10,252 bases of DNA from an uncultured Mesorhizobium sp. (GTDB taxonomy: Bacteria; Pseudomonadota; Alphaproteobacteria; Rhizobiales; Rhizobiaceae): positions 1 to 10,252 of the forward strand of contig CATMOC010000089.1 in NCBI GenBank assembly GCA_950071955.1, read 5' to 3'. Positions 1-10,252 of the stretch are shown here, in pieces (position 1 is the first letter of the stretch; each line of letters opens with the position of its first letter). The notes beneath the pieces are model-generated. The model saw nothing but the letters and a program-made list of their open reading frames with translations, was not told where the DNA came from and did no database searches. The position numbers and the translations under genes were made by a program.

Positions 1-156
1 CCCGCCTTCAATGCTGCCGATCCGGCCATGGGATTGCGGGACGCACGCTATTCTCCGGTTCTCGGCGACTTCCATCCGCGGCGGCCGACCGGTCCCGAGA
101 ACTGGCGGCGGCTGAACGACAGGCTGTCGCCCGCGAACCGGGGGACAGGCTCATGA
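1..156 (+). CDS. C-terminal end of an unrecognised protein upstream of the TolC-like gene (5' partial)
   Basis: Frame 1 is open from the first base to a TGA at 154-156 and gives the last 51 residues of a protein. The fragment is rich in Pro, Arg, Asn and Asp (for example ADPAMGLRDARYSPVLGDF and PTGPENWRRLND) and has no membrane span or cysteine. Its stop overlaps the ATG of the next gene (ATGA, 153-156), so the two are almost certainly translationally coupled and the product probably belongs to the same copper-related operon. I do not recognise a named family in the visible part. The Pro/Arg-rich tail would fit the end of a small exported protein or lipoprotein, but that is a guess. Confidence 0.6.
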   Translation, partial: PAFNAADPAMGLRDARYSPVLGDFHPRRPTGPENWRRLNDRLSPANRGTGS

Positions 157-1604
157 GGCGCGCGGCACGCAGCCTCGCCGCGCTCGTGGCGCCGCTCTTC
201 GTTTCGGCCTGCGTCACGGCCGCCGACGGCCTCGACGATCCGCTCGCCGGGTTCCGGACCGTCTCGGCGAAGACCGCCGCGGCGACGGGCAAGGAAACCG
301 TCTGGGTCCAGTCCAGCGCCGAGGCGCGCGCGCTGGCGGACCGGGTGACCGCGCTGGTCAGGGGCAAGACGATCGGACCGGACCTGGCGGTTCAGGTCGC
401 ACTCCTCAACAACAAGGGCCTGCAGGCCGCCTATGCGGATGTCGGCATGTCGTCGGCCGAGCTGTGGCAGGAGTCCCTTCTCGTCAATCCGCGCGTGTCG
501 GTCGGCATCATGGGGATCAACGGCGGACGTACGGTCGAGACCGCCGTCGTCTCGAACATCCTCGCGCTGGCGACGCGACCGCGCCGCATGGCCGTCGCGG
601 ACGCCCGGTTCAGGCAGGCGCAACTGAGGGCCGCCGAAACGACGCTGCGGCTCGCCGCCGACACGCGCCGCGCCTGGATCGAAGCCGTCGCTGCCTGGGA
701 ACGGGTCGCCTACCTCAACCGGGCTCAGGCGGCCGCCGACGCCGCTTCGGCGCTTGCCGAGAAGCTAGGACAGACAGGAGCGTTCACGAAGACCGGTCAG
801 GCCCGCGAGCATGTCTTCTATGCCGAGCTGGCAGGTCAGACAGCCGAAGCCCGGCTGCAGGCACGGATGTCCAAGGAGGCGCTGACGCGGCTGATGGGCC
901 TGTGGGGGTTCGACGTCGACTATCAAGTTCCGAATGCGCTTCCCTCGCTTCCCGCGAATCCGCTGGCCCGCAAGGACATCGAAGCGCAGGCGCTGCGTAA
1001 CCGTGTCGACCTGGAGATCGCGAAGCTCGAACTGGAGGCGCTCGCGCTATCCTATGGGCTCACCGAGGCGACCCGCTACGTGTCGGATCTCGAACTCATG
1101 AGCGGGGTCGAGATCGAGCGGGAGGAAAGCGAGGACGGCGGCACCGAGACCAAGGTCTTGCTGAACGCCGAGCTCGAATTCGTCATCCCGATCTTCGACA
1201 GCGGGCAGGCCCGCATGCGCAAGGCGGAACTCGCCTACATGCAGGCCGCCAACCTGCTGGCCGAACGCGCGGTCAACATCCGTTCCGAGGCCCGCAGCGC
1301 GTATGACAGCTACCGCTCGACCCACGACATCGCGCGGCACTACCGGGCCAGCGTGGTGCCGCTCCGCACGACGATCGAGGAGGAATCGCTCCTCACCTAC
1401 AACGGCATGATCACCAACACCTTCGAACTGCTCGCCGATACGCGGGCGAAGGTGAACTCGATCATGCTTTCCCTCAACGCCAAGCGCCAGTTCTGGCTGG
1501 CAGACGTGAATCTCGGCACTGCCGTCCATGGCGGGGGCGGGAGCGCTCCCTCCGGCGGAGGCGCCGAGACCGCGGCTGCGGAAGACAGCGGCGGCGGTCA
1601 CTGA
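153..1604 (+). CDS. TolC-family outer-membrane efflux lipoprotein
   Basis: This encodes 483 residues, the usual size of an outer-membrane factor (OMF). The N-terminus is a lipoprotein signal: MRRAARSLAALVAPLFVSAC, with lipobox V-S-A-C and lipidated Cys20. The mature part is largely long helices with heptad-like Ala/Leu/Arg/Glu spacing. It matches the two-repeat OEP layout, roughly residues 75-280 and 285-455, each repeat ending near a Leu/Ala-rich helix. The C-terminal repeat carries the typical end pattern (NTFELLADTRAKVNS...AKRQFWLADVNLG). The last about 25 residues are a Gly/Ala/Ser-rich low-complexity tail. OMFs form trimeric outer-membrane ducts for tripartite pumps. No inner-membrane pump or adaptor gene is visible, so the partner must lie upstream or elsewhere. 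The start is fixed by the ATGA overlap with the preceding gene. The product is probably the exit duct of a copper efflux system, judged from the neighbours rather than from specificity residues. Confidence 0.88.
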   Translation: MRRAARSLAALVAPLFVSACVTAADGLDDPLAGFRTVSAKTAAATGKETVWVQSSAEARALADRVTALVRGKTIGPDLAVQVALLNNKGLQAAYADVGMSSAELWQESLLVNPRVSVGIMGINGGRTVETAVVSNILALATRPRRMAVADARFRQAQLRAAETTLRLAADTRRAWIEAVAAWERVAYLNRAQAAADAASALAEKLGQTGAFTKTGQAREHVFYAELAGQTAEARLQARMSKEALTRLMGLWGFDVDYQVPNALPSLPANPLARKDIEAQALRNRVDLEIAKLELEALALSYGLTEATRYVSDLELMSGVEIEREESEDGGTETKVLLNAELEFVIPIFDSGQARMRKAELAYMQAANLLAERAVNIRSEARSAYDSYRSTHDIARHYRASVVPLRTTIEEESLLTYNGMITNTFELLADTRAKVNSIMLSLNAKRQFWLADVNLGTAVHGGGGSAPSGGGAETAAAEDSGGGH

Positions 1605-1620
1605 CCAGGAGAACAAGACA

Positions 1621-2979
1621 ATGATCACCAGAAGACAGATCCTTGGAGGCGGCGCGTTCCTGGCGAGCGCCGCCGCCTGGACGAAGACCTCGGCGATGGG
1701 CCTTCCAGACGCGCCGATCATGGAATCGCCGGACATGCAGCCGCCGATCTTCCCGTCCAGCGGACCGGACTACCAGCCCGTCGTCACCCTCAACGGCTGG
1801 ACGCTGCCGCACCGGATGACCGCCGGGGTCAAGGAGTTCCACCTCGTGGCCGAACCGGTCGAGCGGGAACTCGGTCCGGGGATGACGGCCTATCTGTGGG
1901 GCTACAACGGCCAGTCTCCGGGGCCGACGATCGAGGCCGTGGAAGGAGACCGGGTCCGCATCTTCGTCACCAACAGGCTTCCGGAGCACACCACCATCCA
2001 CTGGCACGGCATGATCCTGCCGTGCGGCATGGACGGCGTGACAGGTCTGACGCAGCCCGGCATTCCGCCCGGCAAGACCTTCGTCTACGAGTTCGATCTC
2101 GTGAAGAGCGGGACCTTCATGTACCACCCGCATGCCGACGAGATGGTCCAGATGGCGATGGGCATGATGGGCTTCTTCGTCATCCACCCAAGGGACCCCG
2201 CGCTCCACCGCGTCGACCGGGACTTCGTCTTCCTCCTCAACGCCTTCGACATCGAACCGGGCTCCTACGTGCCCCGCGTCATGGAGATGACCGACTTCAA
2301 CCTGTGGACATGGAACAGCCGGGTGTTCCCGGGCATTAGTCACCTGGTCGTGAACAAGGACGACAGGGTGCGGGTGCGGGTCGGCAACCTCACCATGACC
2401 AACCACCCGATCCACATGCACGGCTATGACTTCGAGGTCACGTGCACCGACGGCGGCTGGGTGAGACCGGAGGCACGCTGGCCGGAAGTCTCCATCGACA
2501 TTCCGGTGGGAGCTATGCGCGCCTACGAGTTCGACGCGAAGTACCTCGGCGACTGGGCGATCCACTGCCACAAGTCGCACCACACGATGAACGCGATGGG
2601 CCATGACGTCCCGACCTTCATCGGTGCCGACAAGACCGAGGTCTCCCGGAAGATCCGCACCGTGCAGCCCGAATACATGGCCATGGGCAACCGCGGCATG
2701 GCTGACATGGGCGAGATGGAGATGCCGCTCCCCGACAACACCATCCCGATGATGACGGGCTGGGGACAGTTCGGCGCGATCGAGATGGGCGGCATGTTCT
2801 CGGTCGTGAAGGTCCGCGAGGGCCTCTCTGCCAACGATTACGCCGATCCGGGCTGGTACGAGCACCCGGAAGGCACTGTCGCCTACGAATGGACGGGCGA
2901 CACACCGGCTGCGGCCAAGGCCGCAGACGCACGAACGGTGGCTCCGGCGGCGACGCACGGCGGCCACTCCGATCACTGA
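1621..2979 (+). CDS. Tat-exported multicopper oxidase (CueO/CumA type, copper tolerance)
   Basis: The ATG at 1621, nine bases after AGGAG (1607-1611), gives 452 residues. An in-frame upstream extension would overlap the TolC-like gene and is rejected. The N-terminus is a twin-arginine signal (TRRQIL then a hydrophobic Ala-rich stretch), so the protein is exported folded. All four copper-ligand motifs are present: HWHG (His127, His129), YHPHADE (His169, His171), NHPIHMHG (His262, His265, His267) and HCHKSHHTMNAM (His315, Cys316, His317, His321, Met326). Together these supply the T1 site and the T2/T3 trinuclear cluster. In this family they couple substrate oxidation, including Cu(I) to Cu(II), to reduction of O2 to water. 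A Met-rich stretch lies after the T1 motif (residues about 345-400), and the tail ends in His-rich HGGHSDH. Its place between an OMF and a cupredoxin fits periplasmic copper detoxification. The true substrate cannot be told from sequence. Confidence 0.93.
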   Translation: MITRRQILGGGAFLASAAAWTKTSAMGLPDAPIMESPDMQPPIFPSSGPDYQPVVTLNGWTLPHRMTAGVKEFHLVAEPVERELGPGMTAYLWGYNGQSPGPTIEAVEGDRVRIFVTNRLPEHTTIHWHGMILPCGMDGVTGLTQPGIPPGKTFVYEFDLVKSGTFMYHPHADEMVQMAMGMMGFFVIHPRDPALHRVDRDFVFLLNAFDIEPGSYVPRVMEMTDFNLWTWNSRVFPGISHLVVNKDDRVRVRVGNLTMTNHPIHMHGYDFEVTCTDGGWVRPEARWPEVSIDIPVGAMRAYEFDAKYLGDWAIHCHKSHHTMNAMGHDVPTFIGADKTEVSRKIRTVQPEYMAMGNRGMADMGEMEMPLPDNTIPMMTGWGQFGAIEMGGMFSVVKVREGLSANDYADPGWYEHPEGTVAYEWTGDTPAAAKAADARTVAPAATHGGHSDH

Positions 2980-3004
2980 CGCAACCAGCAACAAGGACCA
3001 CGAA

Positions 3005-3490
3005 ATGAAGACGACTACCGCAGCGCTTGTCGCCTTCCTCGCCCTGACGGGCGGGGCAATCGCAGCCGGAAGCCACGCCGGAGGACATGGCGAGGCAGGC
3101 ATGATGGCGATAGGCAAACCCGGCAAGGCGAAGGATGCTTCCAGAACCGTCACGATCACCATGATGGAACGCGACGACGGCGGCATGGTGTTCGAACCCG
3201 CCTCCCTCGCCATCTCCAAGGGAGAGACCCTCAGATTGAAGTTCGTGAACAAGGGCGAACTCGACCATGAGTTCGTCATGGACGTTCACGACGGCATCAT
3301 GGAGCACAAGGCACTCATGGAGCGCTTTCCCGAGATGGAACATGACGATCCGAACTCGATCCGGCTCGCGCCGGGCGCGACAGGTGAGATCGTCTGGACC
3401 TTCGCGTCGGCGGGCGACTTCGGCTTCGCCTGCCTGATCCCGGGCCACTACGATTCCGGCATGAAGGGCGACATCAGCGTTCACCACTGA
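3005..3490 (+). CDS. periplasmic cupredoxin (type 1 copper protein, CopI-like)
   Basis: The product has 161 residues and a Sec signal peptide (MKTTTAALVAFLALTGGAIA, cleavage near residue 20). A short His/Gly/Met-rich linker follows, then a single plastocyanin/azurin-like domain. Type 1 copper ligands are visible as His88 (LDHEF) and the C-terminal loop Cys143-x4-His148-x4-Met153 (CLIPGHYDSGM). Extra Met and His residues (DVHDGIMEHKALMERF, FPEMEHDD) sit in an insertion between the first His and the Cys, as in copper-tolerance cupredoxins such as CopI. AAGGA at 2993-2997 precedes the ATG by 7 bases, and the gene follows the oxidase by only 25 bases, so they are probably co-transcribed. It probably binds or passes copper or electrons in the periplasm, possibly to or from the adjacent oxidase; that partnership is an inference. 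Confidence 0.88.
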   Translation: MKTTTAALVAFLALTGGAIAAGSHAGGHGEAGMMAIGKPGKAKDASRTVTITMMERDDGGMVFEPASLAISKGETLRLKFVNKGELDHEFVMDVHDGIMEHKALMERFPEMEHDDPNSIRLAPGATGEIVWTFASAGDFGFACLIPGHYDSGMKGDISVHH

Positions 3491-3516
3491 ATTAGCAACA
3501 CGCAAAGGAAGACGAC

Positions 3517-3801
3517 ATGAACAAGACACGCATCCTGCTCGCCACCGCCGCAGCCATCGCGCTCGGAGCAGCCGTAGCCGCCGCACAGGAATACACGGCA
3601 GGCGAAGTGACCAAGATCGATGCCGCGCAGAAGAAGCTGACCATCAAGCACGGAGAACTTGCCAATCTCGACATGCCCGCGATGACGATGGTGTTCGTGG
3701 TTGCGGAGGATTCGATGATCGAGGAGGTCAAGGTGGGCCAGAAGATCGAGTTCACCGCGGACCGGGTCAACGGCCGCATCACGGTCACCGACATCAAATA
3801 G
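3517..3801 (+). CDS. CusF-like periplasmic copper-binding protein
   Basis: The protein has 94 residues with a Sec signal (cleavage near AVAAA-QEY, after residue 23) and a small OB-fold CusF domain. The motif KHGELANLDMPAMTMVF contains the expected Cu(I) ligands: His45, Met56 and Met58. In E. coli CusF a tryptophan stacks on the metal two residues before its first Met ligand region; here that position is Met53 (DMPAMTM). The site is therefore a His/Met/Met/Met type, as in many CusF-like domains outside enterobacteria. CusF proteins carry Cu(I)/Ag(I) to the adaptor of CusCBA-type pumps. Here the visible outer-membrane partner is the TolC-like protein four genes upstream. The ATG at 3517 has AAGGA at 3505-3509. 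The gene starts 26 bases after the cupredoxin stop, in the same apparent operon. Confidence 0.87.
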   Translation: MNKTRILLATAAAIALGAAVAAAQEYTAGEVTKIDAAQKKLTIKHGELANLDMPAMTMVFVVAEDSMIEEVKVGQKIEFTADRVNGRITVTDIK

Positions 3802-3981: not shown

Positions 3982-4437
3982 ATGAAGACATTCAACAGGT
4001 TTGCTCGCGCCGCGGCTTTCACGGCTCTGGCGCTGATCAGCCAGGCGGCCTGGGCCGCGGGTTCGATCGAGGTCCTGAAGTCGGCCTCGTGCGGATGCTG
4101 CGTGGCATGGGGCAAGCACATGCGGGAAGCGGGCTACACGGTCGCCGAGCGCGATGTGCCGCTGGCGGAACTCAATGCCGCCAAGGTCGAAGCCGGCCTG
4201 AAGCCAGGCCAGACGTCTTGCCACACAGGCAAGATCGAGGGCTACGTCATAGAGGGCCATGTGCCGGCGCGCGAGGTGAAGCGCCTGCTCGAAGAGCGAC
4301 CGGATGCGATCGGGCTCACGGTTCCGGACATGCCCTACGGTTCGCCGGGCATGGGCGACATGGCGAACGCCGATCCGTATGACGTGATCCTGGTGAAGCG
4401 GGACGGCTCGACGGAAATCTACGCCAGCTACCGCTGA
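3982..4437 (+). CDS. DUF411 / CopG-like periplasmic copper protein
   Basis: The product has 151 residues with a Sec signal ending near AWA-AGS (about residue 26) and then the DUF411 domain. Conserved family features are visible: SASCGCC (Cys37, Cys39, Cys40), TSCHTG (Cys80, His81), YVIEGHVP (His93) and the C-terminal GLTVPDMPYGSPGM loop (Met117, Met124). DUF411 proteins have a thioredoxin-like fold; the Pseudomonas aeruginosa member CopG binds a multinuclear copper cluster through the CxCC and nearby Cys/His residues and is proposed to act in Cu redox chemistry. AGGAG (3970-3974) overlaps the stop of the mini-protein gene, so translation is probably coupled. It is the last gene of the first copper run. 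Its 3' end meets the copper-ATPase remnant on the other strand, with an overlap of about ten bases. Confidence 0.9.
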   Translation: MKTFNRFARAAAFTALALISQAAWAAGSIEVLKSASCGCCVAWGKHMREAGYTVAERDVPLAELNAAKVEAGLKPGQTSCHTGKIEGYVIEGHVPAREVKRLLEERPDAIGLTVPDMPYGSPGMGDMANADPYDVILVKRDGSTEIYASYR

Positions 4438-4621
4438 AGCGGGAGCCACACCGCACCCGCCTGTGGACCATGCGTCCGCAGCCTCTGCGCGTTGCCGAGG
4501 ACGAACGCGCTCGATAGCGCCATCGCGCCCGCGGCAATCGCGGGCGGGACGCGCAGGTCATGCCTTCCATGGGAATGGCGCAGGGCCTGGCTTTCCCGGT
4601 CAGGCGAAGCCGAACGTTCAT
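4428..4621 (-). pseudogene. copA: deletion scar of a Cu(I)-exporting P1B-type ATPase (CopA remnant)
   Basis: Read on the minus strand from ATG at 4621-4619 (GGAAG eight bases upstream), one frame ends in IPMEGMTCAS, the metal-binding start of a CopA N-terminal HMA domain, at about 4576-4547. A different frame, starting at about 4550, reads PPAIAAGAMALSS then GNAQRLR, the conserved last membrane helix and tail of P1B-type copper ATPases, and stops at 4428-4430. The middle of a roughly 800-residue enzyme (second half of the HMA domain, actuator, phosphorylation and nucleotide-binding domains) is missing, and the two ends are out of frame. An internal deletion of over 2 kb best explains this. 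Upstream at 4665-4685 a CueR-like box faces this remnant at the right distance. The short motifs make the call a strong inference, not proof; the alternative is coincidence in two overlapping frames. Confidence 0.7.
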
Positions 4622-4664
4622 CGGCGTTGCTTCCGGAGCATTCCGTCGTCGCCGTGGCAGATGA

Positions 4665-4685
4665 CCCTTCGAGACTATGGAGGGT
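4665..4685 (-). promoter_or_regulatory. decayed CueR-like operator facing the ATPase remnant
   Basis: On the minus strand this 21-bp element agrees with the perfect operator at 4715-4735 at 16 of 21 positions, by my count. An imperfect dyad (GACCCT...AGGGTC) is still visible. The bases where -35 would lie read CCGACC, against TTGACC in the intact copy, and a 19-bp spacer would place -10 at 4658-4663 (CATCTG). The ATPase-remnant ATG lies about 37 bases further. Its centre is 50 bp from that of the intact operator, so the region looks like a former divergent CueR-controlled promoter pair with one side decaying. Confidence 0.5.
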
Positions 4686-4711
4686 CGGGGCAAGTCGATG
4701 AAAATTCGTGC

Positions 4712-4742
4712 TTGACCTTCCAGAGACTGGAAGGTGGATCAA
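4712..4742 (+). promoter_or_regulatory. CueR/MerR-type operator-promoter for the HMA gene
   Basis: TTGACC (-35, 4712-4717) leads into a perfect inverted repeat, 9-bp arms ACCTTCCAG and CTGGAAGGT around AGA (4715-4735). A 19-bp spacer then gives a weak -10, GATCAA (4737-4742). The long spacer with a dyad between -35 and -10 is the hallmark of MerR-family activated promoters, and the arm sequence is that of CueR boxes (CCTTCC...GGAAGG). Transcription would begin near 4749 and run rightward into the HMA and glutaredoxin-MauE genes. No merR/cueR gene is visible in the window. Confidence 0.85.
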
Positions 4743-4776
4743 GTGCGCATCGGTCCAACCCACGGAGAAGACCCGG

Positions 4777-4971
4777 ATGCGATTTCATATCGAGCACATG
4801 ACATGCGGCGGGTGCGCCCGCAGCGTTACGAAGGCCGTCGAGAGCGTCGATCCGCAGGCAAGGGTGAACGCCGACCCCGTGACGAAGACGGTGACGATCG
4901 TATCCGGCGCCTCGACCACCTCGATCTCGAAGGCGCTCGCCGACGCTGGTTACCCCGCGTCCGCCGCTTAA
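4777..4971 (+). CDS. HMA-domain copper chaperone (CopZ-like)
   Basis: The product has 64 residues, a single heavy-metal-associated domain of ferredoxin-like fold. The MTCGGC motif puts the two Cu(I) ligands at Cys10 and Cys13 and is followed by the typical amphipathic helix (ARSVTKAVESV). The C-terminal pattern ISKALADAGYPA is the usual end of the domain. ATG 4777 with GGAG at 4764-4767 is chosen because the longer in-frame ORF beginning at 4708 would start upstream of the promoter's -35. Such proteins carry Cu(I) in the cytoplasm to P1B-type ATPases and regulators. Here the natural ATPase partner next door is only a remnant, so the chaperone must serve another exporter, act as a buffer, or feed the downstream protein. 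Expression is predicted to be copper-induced through the CueR-type operator. Confidence 0.88.
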   Translation: MRFHIEHMTCGGCARSVTKAVESVDPQARVNADPVTKTVTIVSGASTTSISKALADAGYPASAA

Positions 4972-5040: not shown

Positions 5041-5802
5041 ATGTCAACCGCGACTGCACGCAAGGCCGAACTCTATCGGATGGTCACACCCGAGCACACC
5101 TGCCCCTGGGGCCTGAAGGCGCTCGACCTCCTGAAGCGCGAAGGCTTCGCGGTCGATGACCATCATCTGAAGTCCCGCGCCGATACCGACGCCTTCAAGG
5201 CCGAGCACAAGGTGGAGACCACGCCCCAGACCTTCATCGACGGCCGCCGCGTCGGGGGCTACGACGATCTACGCGCGTGGCTCGGCAAGGAGGTGAAGGA
5301 TAAGGACGCCGTCACCTACACGCCGGTGCTCGCGCTTTTCGGCATGGCACTCGCGATGGCCCTCGCAGCCAGTTGGTCGGTATACGGAAGCTTCGTGACC
5401 GTGGCAGCTGCCGAGTGGTTCGTGGCCTTCGCCATGTGTCTGCTCGCGCTCCAGAAGCTGAAGGACGTCGACGGCTTCGCGACCACGTTCCTAACCTACG
5501 ACCTGCTCGCGCAGCGCTGGGTCCCATATGGCCGGGTCTACCCTTTCGCCGAAGGGCTCGCGGGCGTGCTCATGGTCTCCGGCGCGCTGATGTGGGTTTC
5601 CGTCCCGGTCGCGCTCTTCATCGGCGGTATCGGCGCGGTGTCGGTCTTTAAGGCCGTCTATGTCGACCGCCGCGAACTGAAGTGCGCCTGTGTCGGCGGC
5701 GACAGCAACGTCCCCCTGGGGTTCGTGTCGCTCACCGAAAACCTGATGATGGTCGGCATGGCCATATGGATGATCCTCAAGCCTGCGGGCCTGGGGCACT
5801 GA
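5041..5802 (+). CDS. glutaredoxin domain fused to MauE/DoxX-like membrane domain
   Basis: The protein has 253 residues. Residues about 9-85 are a glutaredoxin-like domain with active site TCPWG (Cys21, no second Cys, so monothiol type), cis-Pro motif TTPQTF (60-65) and GGYDDL (72-77). Residues about 95-250 form a membrane domain with four to five spans (about 95-116, 119-138, 170-190, 190-207 and 232-248), as in MauE/DoxX-type redox membrane proteins. A CxC pair (Cys215, Cys217, in LKCACVGGDSNVPLG) lies between the last spans. The fusion suggests glutathione- or thiol-linked redox work at the inner membrane, perhaps keeping thiols of exported copper proteins reduced or handling Cu-thiolates; this is inferred. 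AAAGGA (5028-5033) precedes the ATG by 7 bases. It follows the HMA gene and the CueR-type promoter, so copper induction is likely unless the intervening hairpin stops transcription. Confidence 0.87.
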   Translation: MSTATARKAELYRMVTPEHTCPWGLKALDLLKREGFAVDDHHLKSRADTDAFKAEHKVETTPQTFIDGRRVGGYDDLRAWLGKEVKDKDAVTYTPVLALFGMALAMALAASWSVYGSFVTVAAAEWFVAFAMCLLALQKLKDVDGFATTFLTYDLLAQRWVPYGRVYPFAEGLAGVLMVSGALMWVSVPVALFIGGIGAVSVFKAVYVDRRELKCACVGGDSNVPLGFVSLTENLMMVGMAIWMILKPAGLGH

Positions 5803-6139
5803 CCTGAAGAAAACCGAGATAGAGCACGATCATGGCAGGCGGAAGTCACGGTCGGCGGCCCTACCTGTCCTGGGTGACATGATCCTCGGGCTCGTGGTGA
5901 TGTGCGGTCGCGACCAGCTGCCATCACCACCAGGTTCGGCTTCGACGTCGATACGGTGACCGGCGCGCGGCAGCCGCGTCAAGAGCCGCCCCGACCACGC
6001 CAAGGCAGCCATCTCGGTCTCGCCGATCGAGGTGGTCGTCGCGATTCTGATCGCGAACGCGATCGGGCGGGAAGAAGAACCGGGTTTGCGTCCCTTGCCC
6101 ACCCCGCAGATAGAGGAGCGCGGCGGCGCCTACCTCCTG
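5803..6139. other. 337-bp stretch without an intact gene; probable island edge
   Basis: Neither strand carries an ORF I can recognise. The left end has a short ORF at 5832 that looks like a frameshifted remnant (separate entry). The middle contains a small inverted repeat CGCGAT-TCTG-ATCGCG (6040-6055), followed shortly by another CGCGATCG. An AGGAGGT-like string lies just after the gapR stop on the minus strand, but no start codon is placed to use it. No tRNA, attachment-site repeat or insertion-sequence end was seen. It separates accessory copper genes from core genes and is best read as degraded sequence. Confidence 0.5.
5832..5961 (+). pseudogene. possible frameshifted remnant of a small membrane protein
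   Basis: ATG 5832 opens a 16-residue frame (MAGGSHGRRPYLSWVT) that stops at 5880-5882. An overlapping ATG at 5879 continues one frame away as MILGLVVMCGRD, hydrophobic at first, to a stop at 5959-5961. Restoring one base near 5877 would join them into a His-containing N-terminus followed by a membrane span, a layout common among small copper-island membrane proteins. The evidence is short and the identity is not established; chance is quite possible. Confidence 0.25.
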
Positions 6140-9696: not shown

Positions 9697-10252
9697 ATGA
9701 CCGTCAAAGTCGCCATCAACGGTTTCGGCCGCATCGGCCGCAACATCGTACGCGCAATCTATGAGTCCGGCCGCAAGGACATCGACATCGTTGCGATCAA
9801 CGATCTCGGCCCGGTCGAGACCAATGCGCACCTGTTGCGTTACGACAGCGTCCATGGCCGCTTCCCCTCCGAGGTGACCGTCGTGGGCGACGAGATCCGC
9901 ACGGTGATCGCCGCCCCGATTCCGGTCCAGGAAGGCATCCGCGGGATCCTGTATCTCGATCGAATCGACGAAATTGATCGCCCCTTCGGCGACGAGGAAT
10001 TATGGGGCGCAGGCGTAGCGGCCGGGATCATCGGTGCGGGCTTGTCGGTGGGAGAGGAACTGCAGGACCTGAATCACGATCGTCAGGAACTGGTCCGCAC
10101 CGTGATCGACTCGATGCCCATCATCGGCGAATCCAGTTCGATCGAGGAGATGAGGGTCTTCATCCGCAAGGCTGCACCGACAGGAAGTACCGTACTGATC
10201 CGTGGAGAAACCGGGACCGGCAAGGAACTGGTCGCCCGGGCAATCCATTACC
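9697..10252 (+). CDS. gap: gap (GAPDH) 5' end fused in frame to a GAF/sigma-54 activator fragment (3' partial, chimeric)
   Basis: ATG 9697, with AGGAGG at 9683-9688, opens a frame that runs off the window. Residues 1 to about 66 are glyceraldehyde-3-phosphate dehydrogenase of glycolysis/gluconeogenesis: NAD-binding [10 protein letters not shown] (7-16), [20 protein letters not shown] and VHGRFPSEV, as expected directly after tkt in Rhizobiales. From about residue 67 the protein no longer reads as GAPDH; the expected phosphate/substrate region, the catalytic Cys (about residue 150) and the rest are absent. A GAF-like segment and the start of a sigma-54-type AAA+ domain follow instead. The frame is unbroken across the join. 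A contig chimera is the most likely cause. The gap call is firm for the first about 195 bases only. Confidence 0.85.
9895..10252 (+). other. fragment of a GAF-sigma-54-dependent transcriptional activator joined to gap
   Basis: Residues about 68-125 of the fused frame ([17 protein letters not shown], then [23 protein letters not shown]) have the pattern of the second half of a GAF sensor domain. A linker ([13 protein letters not shown]) leads to the start of a sigma-54 interaction AAA+ domain: [36 protein letters not shown] with Walker A Lys176, ATP-binding in this family. FHA/GAF/sigma-54 regulators of this look are common in Planctomycetes and Myxococcota. Codons such as TTA, GTA, ACA, AGT and ATT appear here but are rare in the rest of the window, which suggests a different source genome. 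The exact join cannot be fixed; GGCGACGAGATCCGC (9886-9900) could be shared by both parents. Confidence 0.75.

Follow-up and report, generated by a model that had tools for sequence, protein, structure and literature searches.

A probable old deletion scar of the copper-exporting ATPase gene copA in a Mesorhizobium copper island

Introduction

In PMC5552934, Rhizobiales are described as carrying multiple Cu-ATPases per genome, and functional redundancy is raised as one hypothesis. Group VII of that source comprises Rhizobiales Cu-ATPases with TRASH/YHS domains, which an intact ATPase encoded on contig C405 of the genome studied here resembles.

The second system of reference is the HMA-type CopA of Aquibium carbonis (locus L025, NZ_RWKW01000055.1), a protein of 832 residues that passes the copper-translocating model TIGR01511. 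We analysed a stretch of 10,252 nucleotides from an uncultured Mesorhizobium sp. (hereafter, the window), in which two stumps correspond to the two ends of this CopA, in the same place and orientation. Compared with the L025 protein, the stretch containing them lacks residues 26 to 794, and with these the second HMA1 Cys, the CPC helix and both the E1-E2 and the hydrolase domain; its frame is broken and it encodes no ATPase.

Results

Two ends of copA abut between the DUF411 and copZ-like genes

The features of the copper island carried by the window are collected in Table 1. The labels CueR-like and copZ-like are presumptive, based on general motif knowledge together with the Pfam HMA match. 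Downstream of the glutaredoxin-MauE gene (5803-6139), a second island gene is reduced to about 100 bases and followed by about 230 bases without a matching locus: compared with all the fetched loci, they found the window's own locus as sole match. After these bases, a chromosomal gapR-zapA-tkt-gapA block begins.

Table 1. Features of the copper island in the window
Feature	Position	Strand	Remarks
OEP-type outer-membrane channel, multicopper oxidase, cupredoxin, CusF (periplasmic/outer-membrane copper genes)	153..3801	+	
DUF411 gene, convergent with the lost copA	3982..4437	+	PF04214, E 7e-26
3' stump of copA	4428..4544	-	match to copA, E 1.5e-8
Junction	4545..4546	-	2 bases belonging to neither stump; stump frames differ
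5' stump of copA	4547..4621	-	aligned with the copA start of L025/L026
Degenerate CueR-like box facing the copA scar	4663..4686	-	31 of 41 columns agree with the consensus of L021, L022, L025 and L026
Well-kept CueR-like box facing the copZ-like gene	4711..4735	+	CTTGACCTTCCAGAGACTGGAAGGT, CTTGACC-TTCCAGAGACTGGAAGGT; 28 of 31 columns
HMA-domain copper chaperone (copZ-like), intact	4777..4971	+	PF00403, E 2e-10
Glutaredoxin-MauE fusion gene, intact	5041..5802	+	PF07291, PF00462
Remnant of second island gene (165 aa in relatives), frame broken	5803..5906	+	relatives' match stops at 5906

The initial annotation had noticed that the motifs EGMTCAS and PAIAAGAMALSSAFVLGNAQRLR abut in two frames of the minus strand, in spite of an expected spacing of 700 or more residues. 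Both motifs are present and meet at 4547/4544, and the expected spacing is right, residues 26 to 794 being those that are missing. Specifically, the 5' stump consists of the start codon and 24 further codons (25 in total), MNVRLRLTGKARPCAIPMEGMTCAS; it ends in EGMTCAS and is cut just 5' of the second Cys in the CxxC of the first HMA domain, which leaves the N-terminal HMA domain with its GMTCxxC motif incomplete in the window. The 3' stump corresponds to the last 38 copA codons and the stop, PAIAAGAMALSS...LPLQR, and overlaps the 3' end of the DUF411 gene by 10 bases. On the minus strand, an open reading frame at 4316-4693 reads ...IPMEGMTCASRPR... and contains IPMEGMTCAS, and another at 4428-4763, in the other frame, reads ...PAIAAGAMALSSAFVLGNAQRLR...; open frames run through both stumps without joining each other. 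The features of a functional P1B-1 ATPase (E1-E2 and hydrolase domains, DKTGT, CPC) are absent from the window, as they belong to the missing residues, and no match to PF00122 was found on its contig.

Each motif is short, which would leave room for a chance resemblance. We aligned each stump locally to the full-length copA genes of L025 and L026, using 1000 dinucleotide shuffles each. The 5' stump scored 51 and 53 (shuffle maxima 33 and 34) and the 3' stump 110 and 102 (maxima 38 and 39) against L025 and L026, respectively, so that none of the 1000 shuffles reached the stump score in any of the four comparisons. Together with the collinear matches to relatives across the whole locus, this places the motifs far above chance and makes a fortuitous likeness vanishingly improbable; we have discarded it.

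Syntenic relatives carry a full-length copA at this position

Searching window positions 4420-4800 against 61 genomes gave matches, mostly short, in 10 of them. Two loci of genome G002 and one of G003, the A. carbonis genome of L025, are matched by both 4420-4544 (E 2e-28 to 6e-24) and 4548-4800 (E 1e-54 to 1e-44). The two query pieces (1-125 and 129-381) abut in the window, but G003 and one G002 locus hold them at a distance of 2308 bases; in the second G002 locus 805 bases separate them.

The synteny comparison that the initial annotation had called for bears out its proposal of an internally deleted P1B ATPase gene between the DUF411 and HMA genes, as three syntenic loci do carry a full-length copA (residues 1-832) there: L022, L023/L025 and L026/L140. 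The relatives concerned are A. carbonis (L025), one G002 locus and a metagenome-assembled genome (L026, in G178), with a copA of 832 codons; in L026, a TAG occurs within the last ten or so codons. With respect to L025, the window misses interval positions 257-2564, about 2.31 kb.

In conclusion, a syntenic full-length orthologue exists, both ends of copA are kept in order and orientation above chance and the frame is disrupted, as in a deletion pseudogene. Judging from these comparisons, minus-strand positions 4428-4621 are very probably an old deletion scar of the gene for the HMA-type copper-exporting P1B-1 ATPase CopA, which has been decaying since. In kind, it is an ordinary pseudogene.

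The stumps and the copA-facing box decay faster than their neighbours

Substitutions were compared with the four loci that have well-kept ends (L021, L022, L025 and L026). Over a small sample of 51 codons (all 25 codons of the 5' stump, codons 1-26 of the 38 in the 3' stump), the scar showed a pN of 0.147-0.156, whereas DUF411 and MauE gave 0.030-0.044. For window-L025, the only pair tested, the Fisher p was 0.039. The 5' stump is the fastest-changing part (pN 0.21-0.23) and the 3' stump is milder (0.08-0.10); the signal of relaxed constraint comes mainly from the 5' stump, the 3' stump alone having 4.5-5.5 nonsynonymous changes. The copZ gene of the window is constrained (pN 0.08-0.10, pN/pS 0.16-0.21) and is more divergent (80-83% DNA identity) than the neighbouring genes.

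Two CueR-like boxes stand back to back in the copA/copZ intergenic region. The CueR-like box that had been thought to face the ATPase remnant is indeed present, although it is oriented to the copZ-like gene, and it is the degenerate second box that faces the scar. Across the 7 loci aligned, the copZ-facing box keeps 90-100% of the consensus over 31 columns (90% in the window). The copA-facing box keeps 93-98% of its consensus in L021, L022, L025 and L026, 86% in L024 (genome G088), 76% in the window and 63% in L029 (G035). The window leader around the copA-facing box stands at 64-80%, so that this box is kept no better than its surroundings, whereas the copZ-facing box is. The proposed ribosome site holds only weakly: before the copA ATG, L025 reads GAAGGAAC where the window has GGAAGCAAC.

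Since DUF411 and MauE change more slowly than the stumps, and the copA-facing box is degraded where the copZ-facing one is kept, these data argue for an old deletion and against an assembly collapse. The latter deserves attention on account of the source assembly, which is fragmented, 70% complete and divided into 611 contigs, and in which a working copA might have been collapsed or its ends joined by a chimeric read. The right end of the window itself has a chimeric look: at 9697-10252, the first 68 or so codons of gapA are intact (93% DNA identity to G001) and continue in frame into a sigma-54 activator gene, and from 9901 the window switches to sequence without a long match in the relatives compared. 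A search of this assembly with the gapA of G001 found no further part of the gene. We take this to be a probable chimera at the end of the contig. Contig C405 has a tail (L208:4033-4324) that likewise departs abruptly from the relatives and, among the fetched loci, matches only itself; it is a possible further case.

For these chimeric-looking contig ends we kept an artefact at the copA junction as a rival. It is nevertheless highly unlikely, as the two sides of the junction are the ends of a single gene in their proper order, with no visible shared word, and as the collapse of a live gene would not leave stumps and a copA-facing box more decayed than DUF411, MauE and the copZ-facing box. Moreover, the best other CopA-like match in the genome is only 51% identical, so that there is no leftover copA middle (in an assembly where contigs may be missing), and other genomes, including one that consists of a single contig, show similar deletions. 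An old deletion is thus the reading that we retain.

Other loci with an internally deleted copA

We examined 80 loci kept of 128, the two G002 loci, 15 further stretches and the window. Among these, copA or what is left of it lies between DUF411 and HMA-MauE in 7 distinct loci, the gene being full in three and deleted in four. L027 stands outside this count, as it has HMA-MauE and no DUF411 or copA was found in its available stretch.

The deleted copA genes of L021, L024 and L029 are like that of the window in position and in having both ends kept and the middle lost; they differ in their breakpoints, and L029 is more decayed. In L021 (L021:4765-5760), residues 1-195 are fused in frame with 693-832 (breakpoint about 195 / 693-696), giving a well-conserved open reading frame of 331 aa that comprises two intact HMA domains, the end of the hydrolase domain and the final helices; no match to the E1-E2 domain was found in it. 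This gene possibly represents a recent loss and is possibly still translated. In L024, HMA1 is fused to HMA2; the gene has a TTG start, is read in more than one frame and resumes within residues 749-767. The 5' part of the L029 gene is decayed and contains a stop codon, and its sequence resumes near the breakpoint of the window.

The in-frame L021 remnant, with its two HMA domains, and the open frames running through both stumps raise the idea that a short HMA peptide or a membrane peptide is still made from the scar and serves the cell. This is very improbable: the frames of the window are not joined, its HMA domain is cut 5' of the second CxxC Cys, its ribosome site and copA-facing box are degraded, the stump of L029 is interrupted by a stop codon, and the start codon of L024 is altered.

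Of the 80 loci, 28 without this gene order match an HMA-type CopA at 59% identity or above. Full-length genes (match >780 residues, no internal stops) account for 24 of the 28, first picked as full-length and then re-checked, with 14 distinct sequences in 9 clusters. In two loci (L035, L045) the match runs off the locus end, and in two more (L048, L049) only a C-terminal copA fragment lies near the contig end. In these Haematobacter loci the fragment occupies L048:18005-18250 and the same positions of L049, preceded in L048 by non-copA sequence; they could be further copA losses. The scar region matched 18 plasmid records, of which we fetched the 7 without a gene listed under the match; copA was full-length in all 7, so that the absence of annotation is a property of the records. 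Elsewhere, copA decay thus seems mostly absent from the sequences compared, with exceptions.

Where DUF411 stands in another synteny (L142-L150), a DNA search with the full copA interval matched, in 7 of the 9 loci, only its last 50-60 bases, corresponding to the DUF411 end, and gave no match in the other two. Mapping with tblastn found no copA beside DUF411 in L151-L154. Within L146, a 22-residue MauE remnant (L146:4808-4873) lies between DUF411 and the 165-aa gene; from this arrangement, the HMA-MauE block seems to have been lost there.

Number of loss events

A DNA tree of DUF411, HMA and MauE places the window and L029 outside the group that contains the full-length loci, within which support is weak; the AU test does not reject monophyly of these three loci (p-AU 0.12). 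A second tree was built from the upstream flank, from the multicopper oxidase to DUF411, which L024 lacks (hence it is not included) and L026 has in part. It puts the window outside (L025,(L021,(L022,L026))) with starred support, and L029 with loci lacking copA. With clades picked after the loci were known, AU tests on this flank reject window+L029+L021 (p-AU 0.0006), window+L029 (5e-5) and window+L021 (0.003). L021 has a long branch in the flank tree and a divergent cupredoxin gene (62%), so that some recombination in the flank is likely.

Given the tree topology, and with deletion taken as irreversible, three or more losses follow, a number that recombination could lower; copA is internally deleted in four of the seven loci, probably by at least three events. 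A single ancestral deletion, later widened and shared by the four loci, with full copies regained by recombination, would agree with the nesting of the L021 deletion in that of L024 and of the L024 deletion in that of the window, with the overlap between the L029 and window deletions (3' edges 11 bases apart) and with the p-AU of 0.12 for full-length monophyly. We consider it unlikely, as the flank tree rejects the three clades named above and nests L021, with starred support, among full-length carriers, and a deletion is irreversible without recombination.

A stronger proposal is that the DUF411-copA-copZ interval is a site of recurrent loss, where at least three lineages would have independently dropped the HMA-type CopA and kept copZ, the CueR-like box and DUF411, driven by selection (e.g. 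a cost of co-expression with the YHS-type ATPase of the island) and not only by drift. On the loci compared we regard this as doubtful.

Other copper-type ATPases in the same genome

The genome of the window encodes three P1B ATPases with E1-E2 domains, on contigs C405, C99 and C166, and all pass TIGR01511 (cut-off 397) with 607.7, 609.2 and 526.7 bits, respectively. The C405 ATPase is intact (801 aa; YHS, HMBD and E1-E2 domains) and provides the best other CopA-like match in the genome (51% identical over residues 166-818). It is like CopA in passing the same copper-type model and unlike the scarred CopA in being intact, with N-terminal YHS and HMBD domains instead of HMA. The C99 ATPase (L209:10-2049) reads ACPDALG, with CPD where copper-type ATPases read CPC, and the C166 ATPase adjoins a ccoG-like gene, a neighbour typical of ATPases for oxidase assembly. 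C405 is therefore the clearest candidate for copper export.

Matches of C405 to L025 and to both G002 loci stop at its position 4032, 33-52 bases before the match of the window starts. As the C405 match ends just upstream of that of the window in these relatives, C405 is very probably the neighbouring piece of the same island, and from this adjacency its ATPase probably belongs to the island as well.

The suggestion that this copper locus lost cytoplasmic export is hence unsupported, an intact copper-type P1B ATPase being encoded on C405 of the same genome. We reject a loss of all cytoplasmic copper export in view of this gene and the two other intact P1B ATPases. G002, G088 and G035, in which the other deleted loci lie, also encode CopA-like ATPases of at least 51% identity, and genomes with a full copA have several too. 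Redundancy therefore permits the loss of copA, and it neither predicts nor explains it here.

Discussion

The data presented above suggest the following course of events. A copA of 832 codons, convergent with DUF411 and divergent from copZ, very probably lost about 2.31 kb internally and has decayed since. Inspected by eye against the relatives, the junction showed no appreciable stretch of microhomology and no shared word, and the deletion may have been a simple illegitimate event. We also considered homologous recombination between HMA1 and HMA2 as its cause, since the window stretch before the junction is like HMA2 at 26 of 29 bases and L024 shows an HMA1/HMA2 fusion; as the wobble bases vary among relatives, this cause is only a possible one for the window. 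The loss would have been tolerated owing to the other copper-type ATPases in the cell, including the YHS/HMBD type probably of the same island, and the stumps may persist because constrained neighbours flank them, with the overlapping end of DUF411 on one side and the promoter of copZ on the other.

Among the matches listed in the literature search, this scar is not described in the titles or abstract openings. Reading the raw sequence brought to light a genuine gene scar of 194 bases that is not visible from the list of open reading frames alone.

Taken together, the loci compared here form a natural series of copA decay at one locus: an in-frame remnant of 331 aa, a frameshifted remnant, two stumps and a more decayed remnant. 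This series bears on whether the many Cu-ATPases of Rhizobiales are functionally redundant, as raised in PMC5552934.
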